Positions 8,575 through 32,082 of a DNA stretch of 33,116 nt are shown here, in pieces. The stretch is from a virus. The translations under genes and the position numbers were made by a program. The number at the start of each line of letters is the position of its first letter. Within the stretch, counting starts at the first letter, position 1. The notes beneath the pieces were generated by a model. The model was not told the DNA's origin. It saw nothing but the letters and a program-made list of their open reading frames with translations, and ran no database searches. The stretch lies in the IMG/VR virus record IMGVR_UViG_3300020417_002350, positions 1 through 33,116 of that record; one strand, 5' to 3'.

Positions 8575-9897
8575 CTAGCTGTTGTTATCAGGGCCAGTCG
8601 TTGTTCCGAAGTACGGATCCGAGATGTCCTGTCCATCGACAATCTGCTCGTCGGTCGCAGAAGAGCTTCCGGAGGTGAAGTCACCACCATCGAAGACCTG
8701 AGATGTCGTCGTTGAGCTTTCACCAGTGTTGAAGTCGCCGCCGTCTCCCTCGGGTGTAAATGCACCGCCATCGCCAACCATGAGATGCGCGAGCGCTTGT
8801 TGTAGGTCGACCCAGCTGCCGTTCTGGCGCACGTAGAAGCGACCATCAGCGGGTGCCTCAGGAATGCCGCCAGCTGCGCCTCCAGAGACCTCCCACTTGA
8901 TCTGCTTTGGGGTCGTGGTGGCATCGGTGGTGATCGTGACGCCGGGGCCAGCGACGAACTCGACAGGCTCTTCTCCGGTTGCATCCAGAGTCTCCTCGCC
9001 GTCAACGTGCCATGGGTTGAACGTCGAGCTCATGCTGATCAGAGCTTCGTTGTTGCCCAGATCAGTGACGCCGAAGCCGCTTTCAGTGTTGAACGCCAGC
9101 GAGGTGACGCCCGTGAGCAGGTTCTGCTTTGGGCCGGCGTTGGCGATCGGGTCGCCCAGGGCGTAGGCGCGCTCGCTGACCTCGAAGCCATCGAAGCTGC
9201 CGCTGCCTTCTCCACCTCCGCCGCCGTTGTAGATGGCGCCAGAGTCGCGGGGGACATATAGCGGCTGCCACTTCCCGTCTTTCCACGTGAGGACTTGACG
9301 CTCTTCTGCGTCAACACTGAGCACGTCGCCCAGGTCCTTGAGTTCGGCATCTCCAAGGTCGACAGCTGTGCCGTCCGCGCCGTCCTTGCCTGCAGGTCCG
9401 GCCGGTCCTTGAGGGCCCCGGGGCTGAGGCATGAGCGCCAGGTCGCCCACCATCTCCTTGAGGCCTGTCACCTCGTCGCGCAAGACCTCGATCTGTTCCT
9501 GGCTCTGCTGCTTGGCCTGCAGCGTTTCGGCCTGAAGATCAGCTTTGAGTTGCGCCTTCTCGACCTTTCTGTCCTGGTCGCGCTTTGCTTGACGCATTGC
9601 CGCGATCTCGACGCGGGTCAGCATTTGCGTCAGGACGCCGCGCATCAGCGGGGCAGCGCCCCGCATGTCGAAGCCAGCCTTGCGCAGTCCAACGATCGTC
9701 AGGTCGAGCATGGCGCTCGAGTTGCCGATCAGGTCGATTAACCAAAGACGCGAGAAGCCATCTTCTGGGTGCTTGTAACCACGAACTACAACCTCGATGC
9801 CCGGGGAGCCTTGTGCCTCACCAATCGAGACGACCACGCCAGGCAGGACGTGGCGCTTCACCAGAGCCGCTACTTCTGCTGCTTTGGTGAATGCCAT
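8575..9897 (-). CDS. Collagen-like tail fibre/adaptor protein with a coiled coil
   Basis: The 440-residue protein has three visible parts. Residues 1-90 are a globular domain (MAFTKAAEVAALVKRHVLPG, then RLWLIDLIGN), possibly attaching to the tail. Residues about 95-155 form a charged coiled coil (KRDQDRKVEKAQLKADLQAE). Then comes a short collagen-like stretch, GPQGPAGPAGKDGADG (about 161-176), typical of trimeric phage fibres. The C terminus has repeated GDGGDF / FDGGDF phrases, related to the DGGxF ends of the two neighbouring proteins. A CGGAACCCTAGG motif lies 28 bases before the ATG; no Shine-Dalgarno is seen. The trimeric fibre call is inferred from the coiled coil and the collagen triplets. 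Confidence 0.83.
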   Translation of the reverse strand: MAFTKAAEVAALVKRHVLPGVVVSIGEAQGSPGIEVVVRGYKHPEDGFSRLWLIDLIGNSSAMLDLTIVGLRKAGFDMRGAAPLMRGVLTQMLTRVEIAAMRQAKRDQDRKVEKAQLKADLQAETLQAKQQSQEQIEVLRDEVTGLKEMVGDLALMPQPRGPQGPAGPAGKDGADGTAVDLGDAELKDLGDVLSVDAEERQVLTWKDGKWQPLYVPRDSGAIYNGGGGGEGSGSFDGFEVSERAYALGDPIANAGPKQNLLTGVTSLAFNTESGFGVTDLGNNEALISMSSTFNPWHVDGEETLDATGEEPVEFVAGPGVTITTDATTTPKQIKWEVSGGAAGGIPEAPADGRFYVRQNGSWVDLQQALAHLMVGDGGAFTPEGDGGDFNTGESSTTTSQVFDGGDFTSGSSSATDEQIVDGQDISDPYFGTTTGPDNNS

Positions 9898-9928
9898 AGG
9901 AGCCTCAGGGTCCGCCTAGGGTTCCGAT

Positions 9929-10462
9929 TCAGGCCCCACAAACACTGGAGACTTCGGCCGCGATGTCCCAGGCGGAGCGCAGCGCTGCACCGGTGATTGC
10001 CTCGGCCTCGAGGGCGAGGACCATCGGGCCAGCGCCAAGGCGGACATAGGGGGTCAGATGGCGATCGATGTTGAAGCTGTTTAAGCCTGCGAGCTGGTAG
10101 CTGTCCTCGATTTCGCGACCAGGCCTAAGCGCGCCATCACCTAGGCGAAAGCCTCGGCAATCCTGCGCCACGTGAATCGCTTCATGCCGGAGGGTGTCGA
10201 GGTTGTCTGCGGTGAAGGCCCTCTGCTCTCTGTCGACACAGATTCCGACCACAAGGTCTTTGCTGACGTAAAAGCCTTCGGCGTACTCGCAATGACCGCC
10301 CGCATCCCGTGTGACCGTTCGAACCGTGACACCATTTGCCCGCAGAGCGTCCTGCAAGGCTCTGTGAGCCGCGTCAAGGTCATTAGGCAAGCAAACACCA
10401 GCAGAAGCCAGCGAAACGGTTAGAGAGGCAGCCAGGGCAGTCCGTGTAAGTATTCGGATCAC
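9929..10462 (-). CDS. Secreted HExxH-motif protein, putative zinc metallopeptidase
   Basis: The 177-residue protein starts (GTG) with a signal peptide: basic MIRILTR, a hydrophobic core, and ASA before a likely cleavage near residue 21. Residues 90-101 read TLRHEAIHVAQD, a classic HExxH zinc-binding motif. Cysteines at about 24, 58, 75, 102 and 175 could form disulfides after export. There is no clear third zinc ligand motif, although EAEAITGAALRSAW (about 151-164) has candidate acidic residues. It sits among fibre genes with a GGAACACTCC motif 30 bases upstream and directly after a terminator, so it is probably expressed late. It may act on the cell envelope during lysis or entry. Peptidase activity is inferred from the motif alone. 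Confidence 0.72.
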   Translation of the reverse strand: MIRILTRTALAASLTVSLASAGVCLPNDLDAAHRALQDALRANGVTVRTVTRDAGGHCEYAEGFYVSKDLVVGICVDREQRAFTADNLDTLRHEAIHVAQDCRGFRLGDGALRPGREIEDSYQLAGLNSFNIDRHLTPYVRLGAGPMVLALEAEAITGAALRSAWDIAAEVSSVCGA

Positions 10463-21437: not shown

Positions 21438-23905
21438 CAGATGACTCCTGTCTTGAAGATGTTTTGAGCGGATTGAACGGGCGAGGCGTTGTCTGAGGTG
21501 TACTTAACCGTGACCCGGTAGTAGGTGTTCTCAGAGAGCGTTGGCTTGTTGGTGTTCCAGGGTGCCGAGCCGTCTTGCCCAGAGGTTGCGTCCAAGTCGT
21601 CGTAGGTGTTGATCAGTGTCCAGGGACCGGTCTCACTAGCGCCGCTCTCTAGGGTCCAGACGCGCTTCGACAGTGTTGCGTCAGTGCCTGTCACGGCAGT
21701 CGTTCCGCCATTGCTGGACGTGAACACAATCGACGTAGGCGAAGGAGATGCTGCGCTGACGCTTGCGCCTTTGATGTACTTGCCGACAATGAAGTTGCCA
21801 TTAACACCGCTCACGTAGAAGGTGTTGTTTACGCGGCTGACGACAGTGCCAAACGTGGCCGCGGCGAAGGACTTGCTGACTGTGTCGCCATTGGCCCAGG
21901 TTCCGCCGTCGACGAGCATCGTGCTGTTGCTTGCGTCCTTGCTAACGATTGCAACGCCTGGCTCGATGTCGATCGTCAGGCCGTTCACATTCGGCTGGTT
22001 GGGATTGTTCCACCAGAAATAGCGTCCAGTGCCCTTGTAGCCACCAGAGACGGCTGTGCCACTCGTACCAGAGTTGTAGGTATCGCTGGCCGCGTTTGTT
22101 GTCCTGAGGCTGCTGATGCCGTTCTGAATGATCGAGGCAGTGACGACCTCGCCCATGTCAATGACGTAGCACTCAGTACCACCGGAACTGGTGCCCCAGT
22201 CGCCGGAATAAATAGAATTGCTACCGATGCCTAAGGTCTTGACCGTCGCGTTCGTGCCCGGACCTGAAGAGCCGCCACCACCAACGGCGTTGTTCTGAGA
22301 AAGGTCCGACCAGGTTGTAGCGAGACCCCAGCTCGACCCCTGGTAGCCGGCTGCGTAGGGATGGCCGCCCCAGCCGATGTATGTGTCAGCGGAGCCATCA
22401 AACCCCTGCACGAAATCGCCGACCTGAAACTCGTCGAAGCTGCTGTTGTTTGTAAAAGTGAGCGTAGTCCCCGCCGGCTGGTTATCGACAAGCTGGTTTC
22501 CGTCGACTGTCACTCCGCAGAACGTCGTGTCGTTTGCCGTGTGGCAATCAATAGTGAAGCCAACGACATTGGATTTTGAACCAATAGCGAACTGGCAGGT
22601 GTCACCAGGGCCAGTCCTCGGAGCCGTGGTGTTGTTCCAGACAGTTTCAGTTGAACCGTTTGCGTACTCGAAGATGATCGTGTGGTTGTCGTTCTCAGGG
22701 ATAGCCGTCGAGTAGATGACGAAGTTGCCACTTTGAGCAGGGGACAGCGTGATGCTGAGCACGGCGCCGTTCGTCTTCCTGTCGTAAGTGCCTTCATGGA
22801 TTGGATCCCCTTGGAAAGCGTTTGAAGACGTGCCAACTGCGACGAAATCGGTGACAACGTTTGTGACGTTAGTGATTGCGCTTGTTTCGGAATTCGTGAA
22901 GTCCGTGCCATCAGCTTCGGCCTGAGTGGCCGTGCCGATGATGCGGCTCAGCTGATCGGGACCCGAGAAGGTGAGCGCTGCGTCGTAAGGGTCGCTATGC
23001 GTCAGGGTGTCGCCGGTGCTGTAGTACTGACCCGAGAGGGTGATCTTCTTGGTGCTCGAATTCACGTCCTGAATCTGGCCGCCAGTGCTTGGGATGTCTC
23101 CGGCCGAGAAGAGACTGAAGTTTGTGGCGTCAGGAAACGTCATCACTGAGCCGTTGAAGAACTTGCCTATCTGGCCGATTGCCTTCGGGTTGTTCATCAC
23201 GATCCAAAACACCTGGCCAGTAACTACGGCAGGAAACGTCGTGATGGGTGTGCCGCTGTTGTGCAGATCTGACTGACCTGTGCCGTTGACAGAGGTGATG
23301 TTTGTGCCTGGGTTGAAGATCAGAGTGACCGTCTGAGGGAAGCGGAACGCATAGCCCTGGGAGATGCTGCCACTCGTGTCGGAGGTGGAGCCAAACAGGC
23401 CTTGTTGGACTGTGAAGGGGCTCGAGAAGTTGATTGTCTCGCTGGTGCTCGAGTAGCCCGCGCCGCTGCCCCAGTTAGCGAAGCTGCTGGCTTGGCCGAG
23501 GTTGTTCCACGTTTGGTTATTCCAAGCAGAAGCCCAGCCAGCCCAAGCGCACTGGACGTTCACGGTGCTGCCAAAGGTTCCGAGTTGAACGCTGGAGGCT
23601 GCACTCGTCGACTGAGGCAGAGATCCAGCCGGGCCGACAGTGGTGATGTCAGCAGTGAGCGGCTGCTCAGTACCCGTGGGGTTCAGCCCTGCACCATTGA
23701 CAGGTGACTCGATGTTGACAGGCGATTCGATTAACCCGCTAGGCCCCAGGTCCAGGTCCTGAGCCTGCATCTTGTACTGGGTGCCACTGCGCTCGACAAG
23801 CAGCAGGTCGGTGTCGTTGAGAGTGCTCATGTCGGTGTAGGGAACTTGGTACTGGACGCCGGATCGCTCAACCAAGAAAAGATCGTTATCGCTTGGAGTG
23901 CTCAT
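21437..23905 (-). CDS. Large tail fibre/virion protein, 822 residues
   Basis: The N terminus holds two copies of a module: NDLFLVERSGVQYQVPYTDM and TDLLLVERSGTQYKMQAQDL (about 6-50), the form seen in cyanophage fibres and baseplate-associated proteins. A short linker repeats ESPVNIESPVN. The body is Ser/Thr/Gly/Asn-rich with many beta strands and no catalytic motif; it includes ATQAEADGTDFTNSETSAIT (near 320-340), similar to fibre phrases. The C terminus has a fibronectin-like stretch (GPWTLINTYDDLD, SENTYYRVTVKYTSD). Its ATG overlaps the end of the 131-residue gene by four bases. A structural role is strong; the receptor or function is unknown. Confidence 0.82.
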   Translation of the reverse strand: MSTPSDNDLFLVERSGVQYQVPYTDMSTLNDTDLLLVERSGTQYKMQAQDLDLGPSGLIESPVNIESPVNGAGLNPTGTEQPLTADITTVGPAGSLPQSTSAASSVQLGTFGSTVNVQCAWAGWASAWNNQTWNNLGQASSFANWGSGAGYSSTSETINFSSPFTVQQGLFGSTSDTSGSISQGYAFRFPQTVTLIFNPGTNITSVNGTGQSDLHNSGTPITTFPAVVTGQVFWIVMNNPKAIGQIGKFFNGSVMTFPDATNFSLFSAGDIPSTGGQIQDVNSSTKKITLSGQYYSTGDTLTHSDPYDAALTFSGPDQLSRIIGTATQAEADGTDFTNSETSAITNVTNVVTDFVAVGTSSNAFQGDPIHEGTYDRKTNGAVLSITLSPAQSGNFVIYSTAIPENDNHTIIFEYANGSTETVWNNTTAPRTGPGDTCQFAIGSKSNVVGFTIDCHTANDTTFCGVTVDGNQLVDNQPAGTTLTFTNNSSFDEFQVGDFVQGFDGSADTYIGWGGHPYAAGYQGSSWGLATTWSDLSQNNAVGGGGSSGPGTNATVKTLGIGSNSIYSGDWGTSSGGTECYVIDMGEVVTASIIQNGISSLRTTNAASDTYNSGTSGTAVSGGYKGTGRYFWWNNPNQPNVNGLTIDIEPGVAIVSKDASNSTMLVDGGTWANGDTVSKSFAAATFGTVVSRVNNTFYVSGVNGNFIVGKYIKGASVSAASPSPTSIVFTSSNGGTTAVTGTDATLSKRVWTLESGASETGPWTLINTYDDLDATSGQDGSAPWNTNKPTLSENTYYRVTVKYTSDNASPVQSAQNIFKTGVI

Positions 23906-24297
23906 GGCAGGGTCGGAAGGCTGGACAGCGATGCGTTCTGCAACTTCACCCAGTTGCCGCCGTGGGCGTAAAACAGCGCACCCTCTGCGTGGACGTGAGC
24001 CACTGCGCCATGGACACCTGAAGCAGCAGGCAGATCGCCCGTGGTTGCGTAGAGGACAGGATTGAGGTCGCCAGCCTGGAAGAGGGTTGGCTTGTTGGTC
24101 AGGTCGTCGTAGTCACCAGAAAAGCCAGCCACGTTGGCCTGGGCTCCAGCCTCAATGCCGTCCAGCTTCGCCTTATCAGCAGCTGACATGTAGCCCTTGG
24201 CCGATGTCGTCGCGTCGTCAGTAACGAGGACCGTCAGATCAAGACTCGAGCCACCCGAGTTCTCAATCTCGTCGGCAAGGATTTTCCCGTAGGGCAT
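23902..24297 (-). CDS. Short fibre protein sharing the MPYGK N-terminal module
   Basis: The 131-residue protein begins MPYGKILADEIENSGGSSLD then LTVLVTDDATTSAKGYMSAA and DKAKLDGIEAGAQANVAG. This is nearly the same as the first 60 residues of the 206-residue fibre at 20.5-21.1 kb. The second half is DLTNKPTLFQAGDLNPVLYA and ends with a small tip. It could be an adaptor connecting the 822-residue fibre to the virion, since the two overlap by four bases. A GGAATCCTGAGG motif lies 35 bases before the ATG. Confidence 0.78.
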   Translation of the reverse strand: MPYGKILADEIENSGGSSLDLTVLVTDDATTSAKGYMSAADKAKLDGIEAGAQANVAGFSGDYDDLTNKPTLFQAGDLNPVLYATTGDLPAASGVHGAVAHVHAEGALFYAHGGNWVKLQNASLSSLPTLP

Positions 24298-24322
24298 GGG
24301 ATCAGGTCGCTACATGGACGCC

Positions 24323-24469
24323 TCAGGATTCCGAGAACTCCTTGACCGCGATGTCGTAACCCTTCAAGAGCATCGCCTTCTTGACGATCGCAAGAGCGAT
24401 GTCTCTTTTGTCTGTGACCTCGGTGACCTCAATCTGCCCAGGCATTTTGTAGGTGATCTGAAAAAGCAT
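24323..24469 (-). CDS. Unknown 48-residue protein
   Basis: The protein begins MLFQITYKMPGQIEVTEVTD and continues with a helix (ALAIVKKAMLLKGYDIAVKE). Its ATG overlaps the stop of the previous gene (TAATG), and its own stop overlaps the motif of the next one. The tight packing is its main support; the function is unknown. Confidence 0.6.
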   Translation of the reverse strand: MLFQITYKMPGQIEVTEVTDKRDIALAIVKKAMLLKGYDIAVKEFSES

Positions 24470-24660
24470 TAGATCAAGTCGTTATCGAACAGCGCAGACA
24501 TGAGGCAGGCGTAGAGCTGTGTCTTCATCTGGATCAATCTTTCCTGCTCCGAAGCATCGCCCCCGGGCCACACTCTCAACGCTGTATCGGTTGCACTGAG
24601 CATGGCCCGCAGGGTTTCGATGTTGGTTTCGATTGAAACGACGATGTCCCGCTCGTCCAT
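24469..24660 (-). CDS. Unknown 63-residue helical protein
   Basis: The protein begins MDERDIVVSIETNIETLRAM and continues LSATDTALRVWPGGDASEQE and a final helix. I chose the ATG that forms a TGATG overlap with the previous gene; an in-frame ATG four codons upstream lies inside that gene. No family is recognised. Confidence 0.6.
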   Translation of the reverse strand: MDERDIVVSIETNIETLRAMLSATDTALRVWPGGDASEQERLIQMKTQLYACLMSALFDNDLI

Positions 24661-24932
24661 CACCCTTTCCATTTGGTGCGATTAGCCCAATAGGCCGCGG
24701 ACATCTTGCCCTTGGCGATGTTCTTGGCATGGCGATCCCTAAAGGCTTTGCGCTGAGCAGCGTTCTGATTGGTCTTTGCGCCCTGCTCACCGAAGCGAAT
24801 GGTCTTGATCTTGTCGCCTTCCTTGGCCACGACTACGTGGCTCTTAGTTTTGTGATTAGGTGTGCGCTTGGGCTTGTTGAAACCGCTGACGCCAGCCCTT
24901 TCGAGTCGAGGATCTTTCTTTTTGCCGGCCAT
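24660..24932 (-). CDS. Conserved small basic protein, possibly DUF6321
   Basis: The 90-residue, strongly basic protein begins MAGKKKDPRLERAGVSGFNK, continues PKRTPNHKTKSHVVVAKEGD, KIKTIRFGEQG, and ends AKNIAKGKMSAAYWANRTKW. I recognise this pattern (DPRL, GFNKPKRTP, KSHVV, IRFGQQG, RHAKNI.KGKMSAAYWAN) from many phages and from memory link it to DUF6321, with some doubt about the number. The role is unknown; it may be a virion or DNA-associated protein. A GGAACCCTAAGG motif lies 28 bases before the ATG. Confidence 0.78.
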   Translation of the reverse strand: MAGKKKDPRLERAGVSGFNKPKRTPNHKTKSHVVVAKEGDKIKTIRFGEQGAKTNQNAAQRKAFRDRHAKNIAKGKMSAAYWANRTKWKG

Positions 24933-26958: not shown

Positions 26959-27114
26959 CTAAGTCTTCCTGCGGCGGAAGGCTTCGATCTGGGCATCGAT
27001 CAGGTCCTTAAGAACCTTGGCGTTGACGAGAGGAGGATGGCGGCGCTGCGGGCCGCGATAAGGAGAGGGGGCGAAGAGCATTGGATCATCGAGAAGGGTA
27101 AGAACCGTGATCAC
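26959..27114 (-). CDS. Unknown 51-residue protein overlapping the RNR end
   Basis: With a GTG start it reads MITVLTLLDDPMLFAPSPYR then GPQRRHPPLVNAKVLKDLID and a basic helical end. The GTG overlaps the RNR stop (GTGA), so it is probably translated in the same unit. A terminator follows shortly after. No family is recognised. Confidence 0.57.
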   Translation of the reverse strand: MITVLTLLDDPMLFAPSPYRGPQRRHPPLVNAKVLKDLIDAQIEAFRRRKT

Positions 27115-29720
27115 GCCTTGCCCTCACGCTCAGCCTTTTCTGCTGCAGCCACACAAGCGGCTGAACTACAAGCGGACTCAGAAGCGACCAGCTCGCGGGT
27201 GTCGTCGTGACGATTTAGAGCAGAGCGGAAGTCGCTGACCTTGCGGGCCTCGACATCAGCGCTGAGGCGGTCGTAAGTCTCCTTGTCGATGGGCTCGAAG
27301 GGGAGGCGAGGGAATGCACTGTTGCGTGCATCGAAGCGCTGGAGCAGAGCTGCGGAGATGTAGCCCTCGTCGGTCTGAATCGCTTCGTGGATGAGCTCAG
27401 ACAGATCGTCGATCTCGTCCTCGCGAAGCTCAATAGTGGCCGAGGTGTTGTGCGCGGTGTAGTGCTTTTGGACAGCCATCCAAAGACCGAATTGGGCACG
27501 GGCTGACAGCTTGTCGAGGTCGAAGGCGTCACAGCCAGGCAGGTTGGCCCAAGGCACCTCGGTCGGAATCTCGACCAACCACTCAGTCGAGCGGGGGTCG
27601 TTGATGTCGTTCAGGAGGTTGCCTTCTTCGTCACGCGCAGAAGGTGCGGGAATGACGGAGTAGCCAGCGTCGATGGCAGCCAGTGCCACTGGATCGTTCG
27701 CACCGAGAGTGATGCGGCGGATAAAGCGCTGAGCCTTGGGAGGGTGCCAGCCAGAGGAGGCGCCAGTCAGCAAGGACTTGGTGCCAGCAGGCTGGACGGT
27801 GGTCATGCGGTTGGGGACACGCAAGCCACGGGCTTCGCAGAACTCACGGACGGTGGTCTCGACTTCCTGGCGCCAGAAGGACAGGTAACCAGCCTCGGCG
27901 GTTTCGAAGCGCAGACCTTCAGCAGTGCGCGGACGGCCATCAAACATCCACTGGAGCCATTCAGCGCCAAAAGCTTTGACGAAGAAGTCGAACAGGCCAG
28001 TGAAAGAAACACCCACGATCGGGTCAATTTCGCGGGAGTAGGCGTAGCGCTCGTCCTTGAATTGATGGAAGAGCAGGGCGGCAACCTCGAGAGCACCGGC
28101 ACGGAAGGCGTCAGCCTGCTGCTGATCATCTTTCGGGTCGATGGTGTTCAGGTGAATCTCGGAGAGATTGCAGTGAAAGTCCTCGCCCAGGATCTCTCCA
28201 CAAGGGTTGAGGCCGTAACGCATCATCCGGTGATCAAGCTCGCGGGGGTCGCAGCTACTGGCCGCTGGGACAAGCTCGTCATCGGTCTGAACTGTCGACA
28301 GCTTGCAGAGAAAATCCCTCGCGGCGTCTTTGCCTTCTTCGACGTATGTCTTGATGAAGACGTTCTTGGTGTCGCGATCAGGCAACAGGTCGTGGTTTGA
28401 GCGCGCGATTGCCTCGGGCACGAATTGGATGGCACCCTCGCCGGATTGCACCTGCAGGGTCACAGCTTCCTTGACTTGCTCGAGGGTGGGGCGTGCATGG
28501 AAACAGCGGGTGTGGTTAGCCATCCGCAGGTTTTCCTTCACCGGATCGACGCGCCAGTTGCCCTCGGAGTCCTGCGAATAGAGCCCGAGCTTGGCGGTTG
28601 CTGCTTCTGCGTCATCGCTTGAAAATTGGCGCATACCAGCAGAGCGCCGAATGTTGCCAGCAACAATGCACGCAGCAGCTTCGTCAATAAGCAAGCAGCA
28701 CTCGATTGGGGTGAGTTGGCGTCCATGAGCGGAGGCGAGCAGAGCGATGACTTTCTCGAACAGGACAGGCAGCTTCACGGGGTTAGCGGTGCCACCGAAG
28801 CCCTTGAGCTTCTCGCCAGCGCCGCGAATTTGGCTCAGGTCGACAGTGACGTCGAGGTCATGGCCGCGGCTGAATGCCATGTCGATCAGAACCTGGTAGC
28901 CGTCGACCCATCCCTTGCGGCTATCGCCGACGATGATGGTGGCCTCGTCCTTGTCCCAGGAGACAGTTGTCACCTCATCGCCGCCAGGGCCATCGCCTAA
29001 GGGGGTCATCTCCTTCAGGGTCAGACGACGCATAACCGGCGGCAACTTGGCGACCTGGTCCTGCTCGAGGATGGCGCCAGTGCCAGAGCCCATCATCGCG
29101 AGCTCCATCATCAGGCCAAAGACCTCGGGGTCATTCACCGTCGTGTTGGTGCAGTTGTAGGCACCCGAATAGTTTTTGGGCGACCGGATCCAGGTTGTGC
29201 CACCCGTCCAAAGCCATCGACCGGAGGGGAGTGCGTGCTGCTGCTCGGCCATCGTGCGGACCAGGGCATCATCTTCTTCGCCAAGTTGACCCAGCTCGAC
29301 GATGTCATCGATGACACGCTCGACCATCTCCGCATAAGACTCGCGGGTGTTGTCCGCCTTGCGACGGCTATAGGTGCGATAGAAGACAGGGGCGCCAGAC
29401 GGCGCTTCGTCAGAAAACTCCGGCTTGTAGGGAGGAAAGTCAACCTCTTCTCTCTTCAACGCGAGGTTCAGCAGACCCACAACGGCGTCCGAGCTGATCC
29501 GACCGTGATGGTTAATGACACCATCGATAAAGAGATGAGGGACAACGGTCATGTCCTTCGGCGCCAACTCAGGGAGAGCGTCGACGTCGATGTATTCAAC
29601 AAAAGAGCGGCCATCAAGGCCGGTCTGTGAGGCAAAGGTCGCAAGGGCTTCGTCGATCCTTGCGTGCATGTCTCGGCAGGGCTCGCAGCGGTGTTCTGCG
29701 TGGTAGACGAACAGCTTCAT
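27111..29720 (-). CDS. nrdJ: Class II ribonucleotide reductase (B12-dependent, monomeric type) with an N-terminal thioredoxin-like domain
   Basis: The enzyme makes deoxynucleotides from ribonucleotides with a B12-generated radical. Residues 1-90 look like a thioredoxin/glutaredoxin fold: HRCEPCRDMH (CxxC at 12-15) and VVPHLFIDG (cis-Pro near 61). Then the catalytic domain follows: YNC (C190), GFGGTANP (about 308-314), IRRSAGMR (357-364), NPCGE (506-509; radical Cys 507 and Glu 509), HCNLSEI (C517), and VQPAGTKSLLTGASSGWHP (642-660). The C-terminal CSSAAC (C851 and C856) matches the CxxxxC redox pair of the monomeric type. At 869 residues it is about 100 longer than usual because of the N-terminal domain, which may supply electrons to the enzyme directly. 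Class II monomeric RNRs are known in cyanobacteria and their phages. It sits in a small-gene unit ended by a terminator. Confidence 0.93.
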   Translation of the reverse strand: MKLFVYHAEHRCEPCRDMHARIDEALATFASQTGLDGRSFVEYIDVDALPELAPKDMTVVPHLFIDGVINHHGRISSDAVVGLLNLALKREEVDFPPYKPEFSDEAPSGAPVFYRTYSRRKADNTRESYAEMVERVIDDIVELGQLGEEDDALVRTMAEQQHALPSGRWLWTGGTTWIRSPKNYSGAYNCTNTTVNDPEVFGLMMELAMMGSGTGAILEQDQVAKLPPVMRRLTLKEMTPLGDGPGGDEVTTVSWDKDEATIIVGDSRKGWVDGYQVLIDMAFSRGHDLDVTVDLSQIRGAGEKLKGFGGTANPVKLPVLFEKVIALLASAHGRQLTPIECCLLIDEAAACIVAGNIRRSAGMRQFSSDDAEAATAKLGLYSQDSEGNWRVDPVKENLRMANHTRCFHARPTLEQVKEAVTLQVQSGEGAIQFVPEAIARSNHDLLPDRDTKNVFIKTYVEEGKDAARDFLCKLSTVQTDDELVPAASSCDPRELDHRMMRYGLNPCGEILGEDFHCNLSEIHLNTIDPKDDQQQADAFRAGALEVAALLFHQFKDERYAYSREIDPIVGVSFTGLFDFFVKAFGAEWLQWMFDGRPRTAEGLRFETAEAGYLSFWRQEVETTVREFCEARGLRVPNRMTTVQPAGTKSLLTGASSGWHPPKAQRFIRRITLGANDPVALAAIDAGYSVIPAPSARDEEGNLLNDINDPRSTEWLVEIPTEVPWANLPGCDAFDLDKLSARAQFGLWMAVQKHYTAHNTSATIELREDEIDDLSELIHEAIQTDEGYISAALLQRFDARNSAFPRLPFEPIDKETYDRLSADVEARKVSDFRSALNRHDDTRELVASESACSSAACVAAAEKAEREGKA

Positions 29721-30945: not shown

Positions 30946-32082
30946 TCAGGTCTCGGCAGAGCCATACGCGCCGCCGTAGTCGAAGAGCTCGTAAGGCTCC
31001 AAGCCGGGGTCAGGGTTTTGCAGGTCAATGGCGTAGGTGTTGCGCTGACCAGGAGCCAGCCACATCACGTTCTGCGCGGCAATCCCATCTAGGCCAAGAC
31101 CATCGCCCGCGTAGAAATCCGTGCCCATCACTGAGGATGAACGGGCCCACTTGCCAGTGACCAGAGTGTCGTGGATATGGCCACTGATGCCGAAGGTGGC
31201 ATCGTGCTGGCCAAGCAATGATTGAACGGCGGTCTGATTGGTTGGGTTGAATCGCCCCTGATCGCCATGGATCATCAGCATCCGGTGGCCCTGGATCTCC
31301 AAGACCTTGCGGTTGACGCCGAACTCACATTCGACATCGCTGCCGCGGTAGTAGCTGGCCAGTTCTGCATTCAGGGCACTGTCCCAGTTGTCTGCGCTCA
31401 TCACGTGGCTGTGACCGCGATCAGCAAACAAGCGGGCCTCGTTGCCAGCGATGCCGGTGACGCGAACTCGAGGGAATACCTCAGACTCGGCCAGATCATT
31501 GATGAACTGAATGACCAGATCCTTGCCCCGACTGAAGGTGTAACAGGCCGCACCCTCGGAGTTGAGCATCTTGTCGTACCGCTCCTTGCCGATCTTCGAG
31601 TCGAAGATGTCACCCGTTAGGGCAACCACAACCTCTTCTGCACGATGTGCAACGCCATAGAACTTGACGTGCTCGGCCAAGGCGCGAAGGCGACGAGCAG
31701 CGATTGAAAAGTCCCACTCGTTTGCGTCTTGACGTTCCTCCATGCCTCGAACGACGCAGCCGAAATGGACGTCGGAGAGCTGCGCAACAATCGCGCCACC
31801 CATCAGGCGGATGCCCTGGGCGTACTTCTTGGAGCTGTAGAAGGAATCGATGTCCTCCTGCATCTCGCGAGCGTTGCGGATCTCACGCTCGAGCTGCTTC
31901 TGTTGCAACTCGGCTCGCGCCGCGTCCCGTTTGTCCTTGCGGGCATTGGCGGACTGATCTCGCAGTGCTTGCTCTTGTGCCTCTGGGCTCAGGTCCGCGA
32001 GAGGGTCGACCAGCACCTCGGTCAGTGGTTCAGCAGCAGGGCGCTCAGCGAGCTGCTTGATGCGATCGAAGTCGATAGTCAT
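30946..32082 (-). CDS. Metallophosphoesterase / SbcD-Mre11-like phosphodiesterase
   Basis: The 378-residue protein carries the calcineurin-like motif set in order: QLSDVHFG (101-108), LTGDIFD (155-161), AGNEAR (212-217), MIHGD (270-274) and GHIHD (301-305). These bind two metal ions and cut phosphodiesters. The third motif is normally GNHE or GNHG; here the His position is Glu (GNEAR), which may change metal use. The N-terminal 90 residues are charged and helical, perhaps a coiled coil that mediates partners. Placed in the replication-side module, a DNA repair or nucleolytic role (SbcD-like) is plausible, but a nucleotide hydrolase cannot be excluded. Its ATG overlaps the previous stop (ATGA). 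Confidence 0.83.
   Translation of the reverse strand: MTIDFDRIKQLAERPAAEPLTEVLVDPLADLSPEAQEQALRDQSANARKDKRDAARAELQQKQLEREIRNAREMQEDIDSFYSSKKYAQGIRLMGGAIVAQLSDVHFGCVVRGMEERQDANEWDFSIAARRLRALAEHVKFYGVAHRAEEVVVALTGDIFDSKIGKERYDKMLNSEGAACYTFSRGKDLVIQFINDLAESEVFPRVRVTGIAGNEARLFADRGHSHVMSADNWDSALNAELASYYRGSDVECEFGVNRKVLEIQGHRMLMIHGDQGRFNPTNQTAVQSLLGQHDATFGISGHIHDTLVTGKWARSSSVMGTDFYAGDGLGLDGIAAQNVMWLAPGQRNTYAIDLQNPDPGLEPYELFDYGGAYGSAET

Follow-up and report, generated by a model that had tools for sequence, protein, structure and literature searches.

A predicted thioredoxin-type domain fused to a monomeric class II ribonucleotide reductase in P-SS2-like cyanophages

A single gene in a viral DNA from IMG/VR joins what is predicted to be a thioredoxin-type domain to a monomeric class II (B12-dependent) ribonucleotide reductase (RNR) that keeps its own pair of tail cysteines. 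We propose that the fused domain acts as a tethered electron donor to the tail cysteines of its NrdJ partner, and on the basis of sequence profiles and structural models we assign this explanation as a whole a probability of about 0.72. The window analysed is the whole of record IMGVR_UViG_3300020417_002350 (33,116 bases, 56% G+C). The portal protein encoded by this record has its nearest relatives in P-SS2, the S-CRES phages and S-CBS2, all of which are cyanophages, and the source is most likely a marine phage that infects cyanobacteria.

Cyanophages are limited by their supply of dNTPs, and what RNRs carried from one host to another usually lack is the electron donor. A class II enzyme with a built-in thioredoxin would provide a natural construct with which to ask whether tethering of the donor speeds turnover.

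Features of the fusion protein

The original prediction of a thioredoxin-like domain fused to a class II RNR is supported by profile searches, residue conservation and AF2 modelling. Its coordinates for the gene (27111-29720) are correct, and the coding strand is the minus strand (Table 1). Likewise, the cysteine motif that it placed at residues 12-15 is present as C12-E-P-C15, the cis-Pro-like VVP corresponds to residues 59-61, and the additional C-terminal CxxxxC pair is C851-SSAA-C856.

Table 1. Positions in the window of the fusion gene and its predicted parts
Feature	Position	Strand	Remarks
869-aa fusion gene	27111..29720	-	thioredoxin-type domain + monomeric class II (adenosylcobalamin) ribonucleotide reductase
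Thioredoxin-type domain (predicted), residues 1-90	29451..29720	-	CEPC 12-15 opens helix 13-33; putative cis-Pro P61 just ahead of strand 62-65
C12-E13-P14-C15 codons	29676..29687	-	redox-active CxxC (predicted)
Linker, residues 91-101	29418..29450	-	residues 92-97 modelled as disordered (pLDDT below 50)
Class II RNR core and tail (predicted), residues 102-857	27150..29417	-	C507/C517 align with C408/C419 of L. leichmannii (1L1L); C190 invariant
C-terminal shuttle pair C851...C856 codons (CSSAAC)	27153..27170	-	predicted disordered tail

When the N-terminal domain is searched in isolation, it matches the Pfam family Thioredoxin_3 (PF13192) with 28.0 bits (E 2.2e-6, cut-off 24.8), and it also matches the Pfam family Thioredoxin. 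Searched against the whole fusion protein, PF13192 gives 22.9 bits, slightly below the same cut-off. The corresponding domains of the relatives described below match Thioredoxin (PF00085), and the glutaredoxin family PF00462 gave no match to the N-terminal domain at E values up to 10. Identity between the window's domain and the other fused N-terminal domains is only 24-33%. With a profile of the remaining four fused domains, the window's domain scores 33.9 bits, compared with 8.6 bits or less for 5000 shuffled versions of that domain, and a profile from four fused domains retrieves solved thioredoxins with an E value of 8e-8 and the CxxC in register. Furthermore, C12, C15 and P61 are shared without exception by the five fused proteins.

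Structural models, from which the P-SS2 sequence was absent, are consistent with this assignment. In the AF2 model of the full-length protein, the order of elements is beta(3-7)-alpha(13-33)-beta(41-45)-beta(62-65)-beta(69-72)-alpha(77-89), which agrees with the thioredoxin type. C12 and C15 lie at the N-terminal end of the first helix and P61 precedes a strand, as in thioredoxin, so that P61 is the probable cis-Pro of the fold. Confidence is modest across residues 51-90 (block means of 64-75). The domain modelled alone, from an alignment that included free-standing thioredoxins, is poorer (pLDDT 72) than the domain within the full-length model. With this weak model Foldseek returned no match at an E value of 0.001 or better; VIA-align returned mostly thioredoxin-fold proteins, yet with Z scores of just 5-7. 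Taken together, the profiles and the full-length model indicate that these N-terminal residues probably constitute a short thioredoxin-type domain.

The assignment of the remainder of the protein to the monomeric class II enzymes (NrdJ or RTPR) is predicted from both sequence and model. Its core matches TIGR02505, the profile for adenosylcobalamin-dependent ribonucleoside-triphosphate reductase, with 647.8 bits (cut-off 340). The full-length AF2 model has a pLDDT of 86 and a pTM of 0.83, and its best Foldseek match is the monomeric class II enzyme 1L1L (E 1.6e-34), in agreement with the class II barrel fold. C851 and C856 align with the C-terminal cysteine pair of 1L1L and fall in a stretch (residues 842-861) that the full-length model predicts to be disordered. 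Five cysteines (C190, C507, C517, C851 and C856), which would supply the radical cysteine, the active-site pair and the C-terminal shuttle pair, are invariant across 44 phage and host sequences.

The domain and the core share one reading frame

In the window's fusion gene, the codon just before the ATG is a stop. None of the five fused genes has an ATG near the boundary between domain and core, and thus the reductase core could not readily be made without the domain. In L167 and P-SS2, there is no ATG, GTG or TTG between codon 26 and codon 110.

The deposited gene model of P-SS2 implies a different start. In all three deposits nrd is annotated to begin 25 codons late, at codon 26, with loss of the CxxC (L022 6001-6076, equivalent to GQ334450 6778-6853), and the deposited model thereby hides the predicted catalytic motif of the fused domain. 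If this annotation were right, the true protein would begin within or after the domain, and the apparent fusion would reflect a mis-called start or chance read-through; the window's gene does contain an ATG at codon 18. We consider this explanation very improbable and disfavour it, because five divergent reading frames are open throughout the domain, because A8, R11, C12, P14 and C15 are conserved upstream of those codons, and because start codons are scarce near the core boundary as described above.

Distribution of the fusion in phages and hosts

Five viral sequences were found to carry the fusion: the window, the IMG/VR contigs L002 and L167 (approximately 100 kb each) and L005 (8.9 kb), and cyanophage P-SS2. 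Each of the four from IMG/VR may be a fragment. The P-SS2 protein is 58% identical to the window's fusion in a match that covers residues 1-839. In 1181 phage records that contain a related RNR, close matches to the N-terminal domain came from three P-SS2 records only, and a viral scan with this domain alone revealed no further fusion. In a tree of the reductase core, calculated without the N-terminal domain, the five fusions form one clade (SH-aLRT 98) with the window's record as its deepest branch. A single origin therefore suffices to explain them. The fused NrdJ is most likely that of a P-SS2-like cyanosiphovirus.

The original prediction raised the concern that the same extension might be universal in host RNRs, and this is excluded in the genomes sampled. 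The N-terminal domain is present at none of the best 80 genome loci, nearly all of them cyanobacterial and mostly from filamentous species. A match at an E value of 1e-20 or better occurs in 144 of 386 cyanobacterial genomes; among the matches listed there is no N-terminal extension, as these begin at model position 75 at the least, with one exception that begins at position 46 and whose path crosses a stop codon.

Two kinds of candidate were rejected. Streptomyces phage tblastn matches that start at residue 63 are not fusions, and the Muntaha reading frame, counted from its first methionine, has just 7 residues before the core. L145 has a 54-residue, cysteine-containing stretch upstream of the core that does not look like a redoxin.

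Some nrdJ frames are 1100-1900 aa long, with the core aligned in two pieces (L020 4959-8390, L021 3006-7529 and L166 5911-10453), and many of the listed cyanobacterial nrdJ matches are likewise of this length with a split core. This pattern suggests inteins or other in-frame insertions.

Genes in the neighbourhood of nrdJ

In L002, L005, L167 and P-SS2, a gene for a free-standing thioredoxin of 96-97 aa (CGWC, CGYC or CGFC) ends immediately upstream of the fused gene. In the window, which may be a fragment, the corresponding upstream slot contains no redoxin, and no free-standing one was detected in the rest of the 33 kb. A clade of unfused cyanophage nrdJ genes that includes S-CBS2 has a small glutaredoxin gene approximately 1-3 kb upstream (L004, L012, L014, L015, L017-L021, L023 and L040). 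The upstream thioredoxin of four fusion phages and the upstream glutaredoxin of the unfused clade show that a redoxin gene has been linked to nrdJ repeatedly.

Cobalamin adenosyltransferase makes the cofactor that class II RNRs require. Matches to this enzyme (cobO-like) occur in P-SS2 (W01) at 23847-24833, as three pieces of one frame, and the other four fusion records yielded none. The window carries a phosphoesterase/exonuclease-like gene (phrog_284) upstream of nrdJ at 30946-32082, and L167 and P-SS2 each have a gene of similar size upstream of their nrdJ.

P-SS2 (L022) also has two identical 195-aa reading frames annotated as 'transcriptional regulator' (8711-9298 and 9363-9950), both of which terminate in a duplicate of the C-terminal tail of NrdJ, CTSAAC included. 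The pair is a tandem repeat, either real or an assembly error. PHROG 34632, which has the same name, matches NrdJ residues 804-867.

A proposed electron path

Turnover of class II RNRs oxidizes cysteines in the active site, which are reduced by a pair of cysteines in the tail, and the tail is in turn reduced by thioredoxin. In the fusion protein, each dNTP made would oxidize the pair C190/C517, and C851/C856 in the disordered tail would reduce it. The tethered C12-x-x-C15 would then reduce the tail pair by dithiol-disulfide exchange; we infer that electrons flow in this direction and that the transfer is intramolecular. With the domain held by a short flexible linker, the first donor of electrons would belong to the enzyme itself and be present at high local concentration. 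A fused thioredoxin itself needs re-reduction, for which the candidates are the thioredoxin reductase or ferredoxin-thioredoxin reductase of the host, or another redoxin.

A viral monomeric NrdJ (NrdJm) is reduced by thioredoxin and thioredoxin reductase (PMC6459318), and the glutaredoxin portion of Facklamia Grx::NrdB reduces RNR efficiently, an experimental precedent which indicates that a fused redoxin can act in this role (PMC6187632).

The original prediction held that the fusion would make the phage enzyme independent of host thioredoxin. At most, this could apply to the host thioredoxin protein. Because the domain must be recharged, the phage would still depend on host reductases and their electrons; a search of the five fusion records, four of which may be fragments, revealed no thioredoxin reductase. 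Moreover, four relatives keep the adjoining second thioredoxin, and hence the fused domain may be insufficient on its own. A link between the fusion and host shutdown is speculation.

The upstream thioredoxin genes of these relatives also favour a relay of two redoxins, wherein the free-standing phage protein charges the fused domain and the latter serves as a docking intermediate to the reductase tail. Against such a relay, the window, which may be a fragment, yielded no free-standing thioredoxin gene in its 33 kb, and the two redoxins could serve different substrates; we regard it as rather unlikely. Less probable still is that the domain has a regulatory or sensory role, in which its disulfide state or docking would gate the reductase (for example, in response to cellular redox state or light) with no feed of electrons. 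Thioredoxin folds can serve for binding alone, and the ATP-cones that form N-terminal additions to other RNRs are regulatory (PMC9669993). However, the domain retains both cysteines, the predicted cis-Pro and a flexible linker, as would be expected of a catalytic redoxin.

Direct donation of electrons from the fused domain to the tail is the reading we prefer. A broader scenario is possible, and we offer it tentatively: the phage lineage built a self-reducing B12 RNR, a second phage thioredoxin feeds the tethered one in the relatives, and this dedicated line competes with the clients of host thioredoxin during infection.

Comparison with known systems

The fusion appears to be undescribed in the literature searched and to represent a variant on the known theme of redoxin-RNR fusions. 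A search for phage NrdJ with a thioredoxin domain found nothing. Passages of the P-SS2 genome paper list the thioredoxin gene separately from nrd and leave a fusion unmentioned (PMC2784084), and the passages searched of a 2013 survey of phage RNRs do not describe one.

P-SS2 nrd (GQ334450, ACT65573.1) has the identical fusion layout if it is read from the upstream ATG (MKVLLLHAPDRCRPC...). It differs from the window's gene in its late annotated start, which omits the CxxC, and in the free-standing thioredoxin upstream. The rnr gene of Synechococcus phage S-CBS2 encodes a reductase core of 59.5% identity and has a similarly linked redoxin gene. In contrast, S-CBS2 rnr and the related cyanophage nrdJ genes are unfused, with the redoxin of one clade being the separate small glutaredoxin.

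Lactobacillus leichmannii RTPR (1L1L) and the Thermus-virus NrdJm share with the fusion a monomeric class II core and the same active-site and tail cysteines. Unlike the fusion, these enzymes have no N-terminal redoxin and depend on a separate thioredoxin. Rozman Grinberg et al. (2018) reported glutaredoxin fusions to NrdA, NrdB, NrdD and NrdJ, the sole grx::nrdJ being that of Labrenzia aggregata (PMC6187632). A close parallel is Grx::NrdB of Facklamia ignava, in which a redoxin is likewise fused to an RNR component, has its CxxC also at positions 12 and 15, and is a working reductant (PMC6187632). The published fusions involve glutaredoxins, mostly on the class I component NrdB, whereas the domain described here is predicted to be of the thioredoxin type and is carried by a phage enzyme of the monomeric class II.
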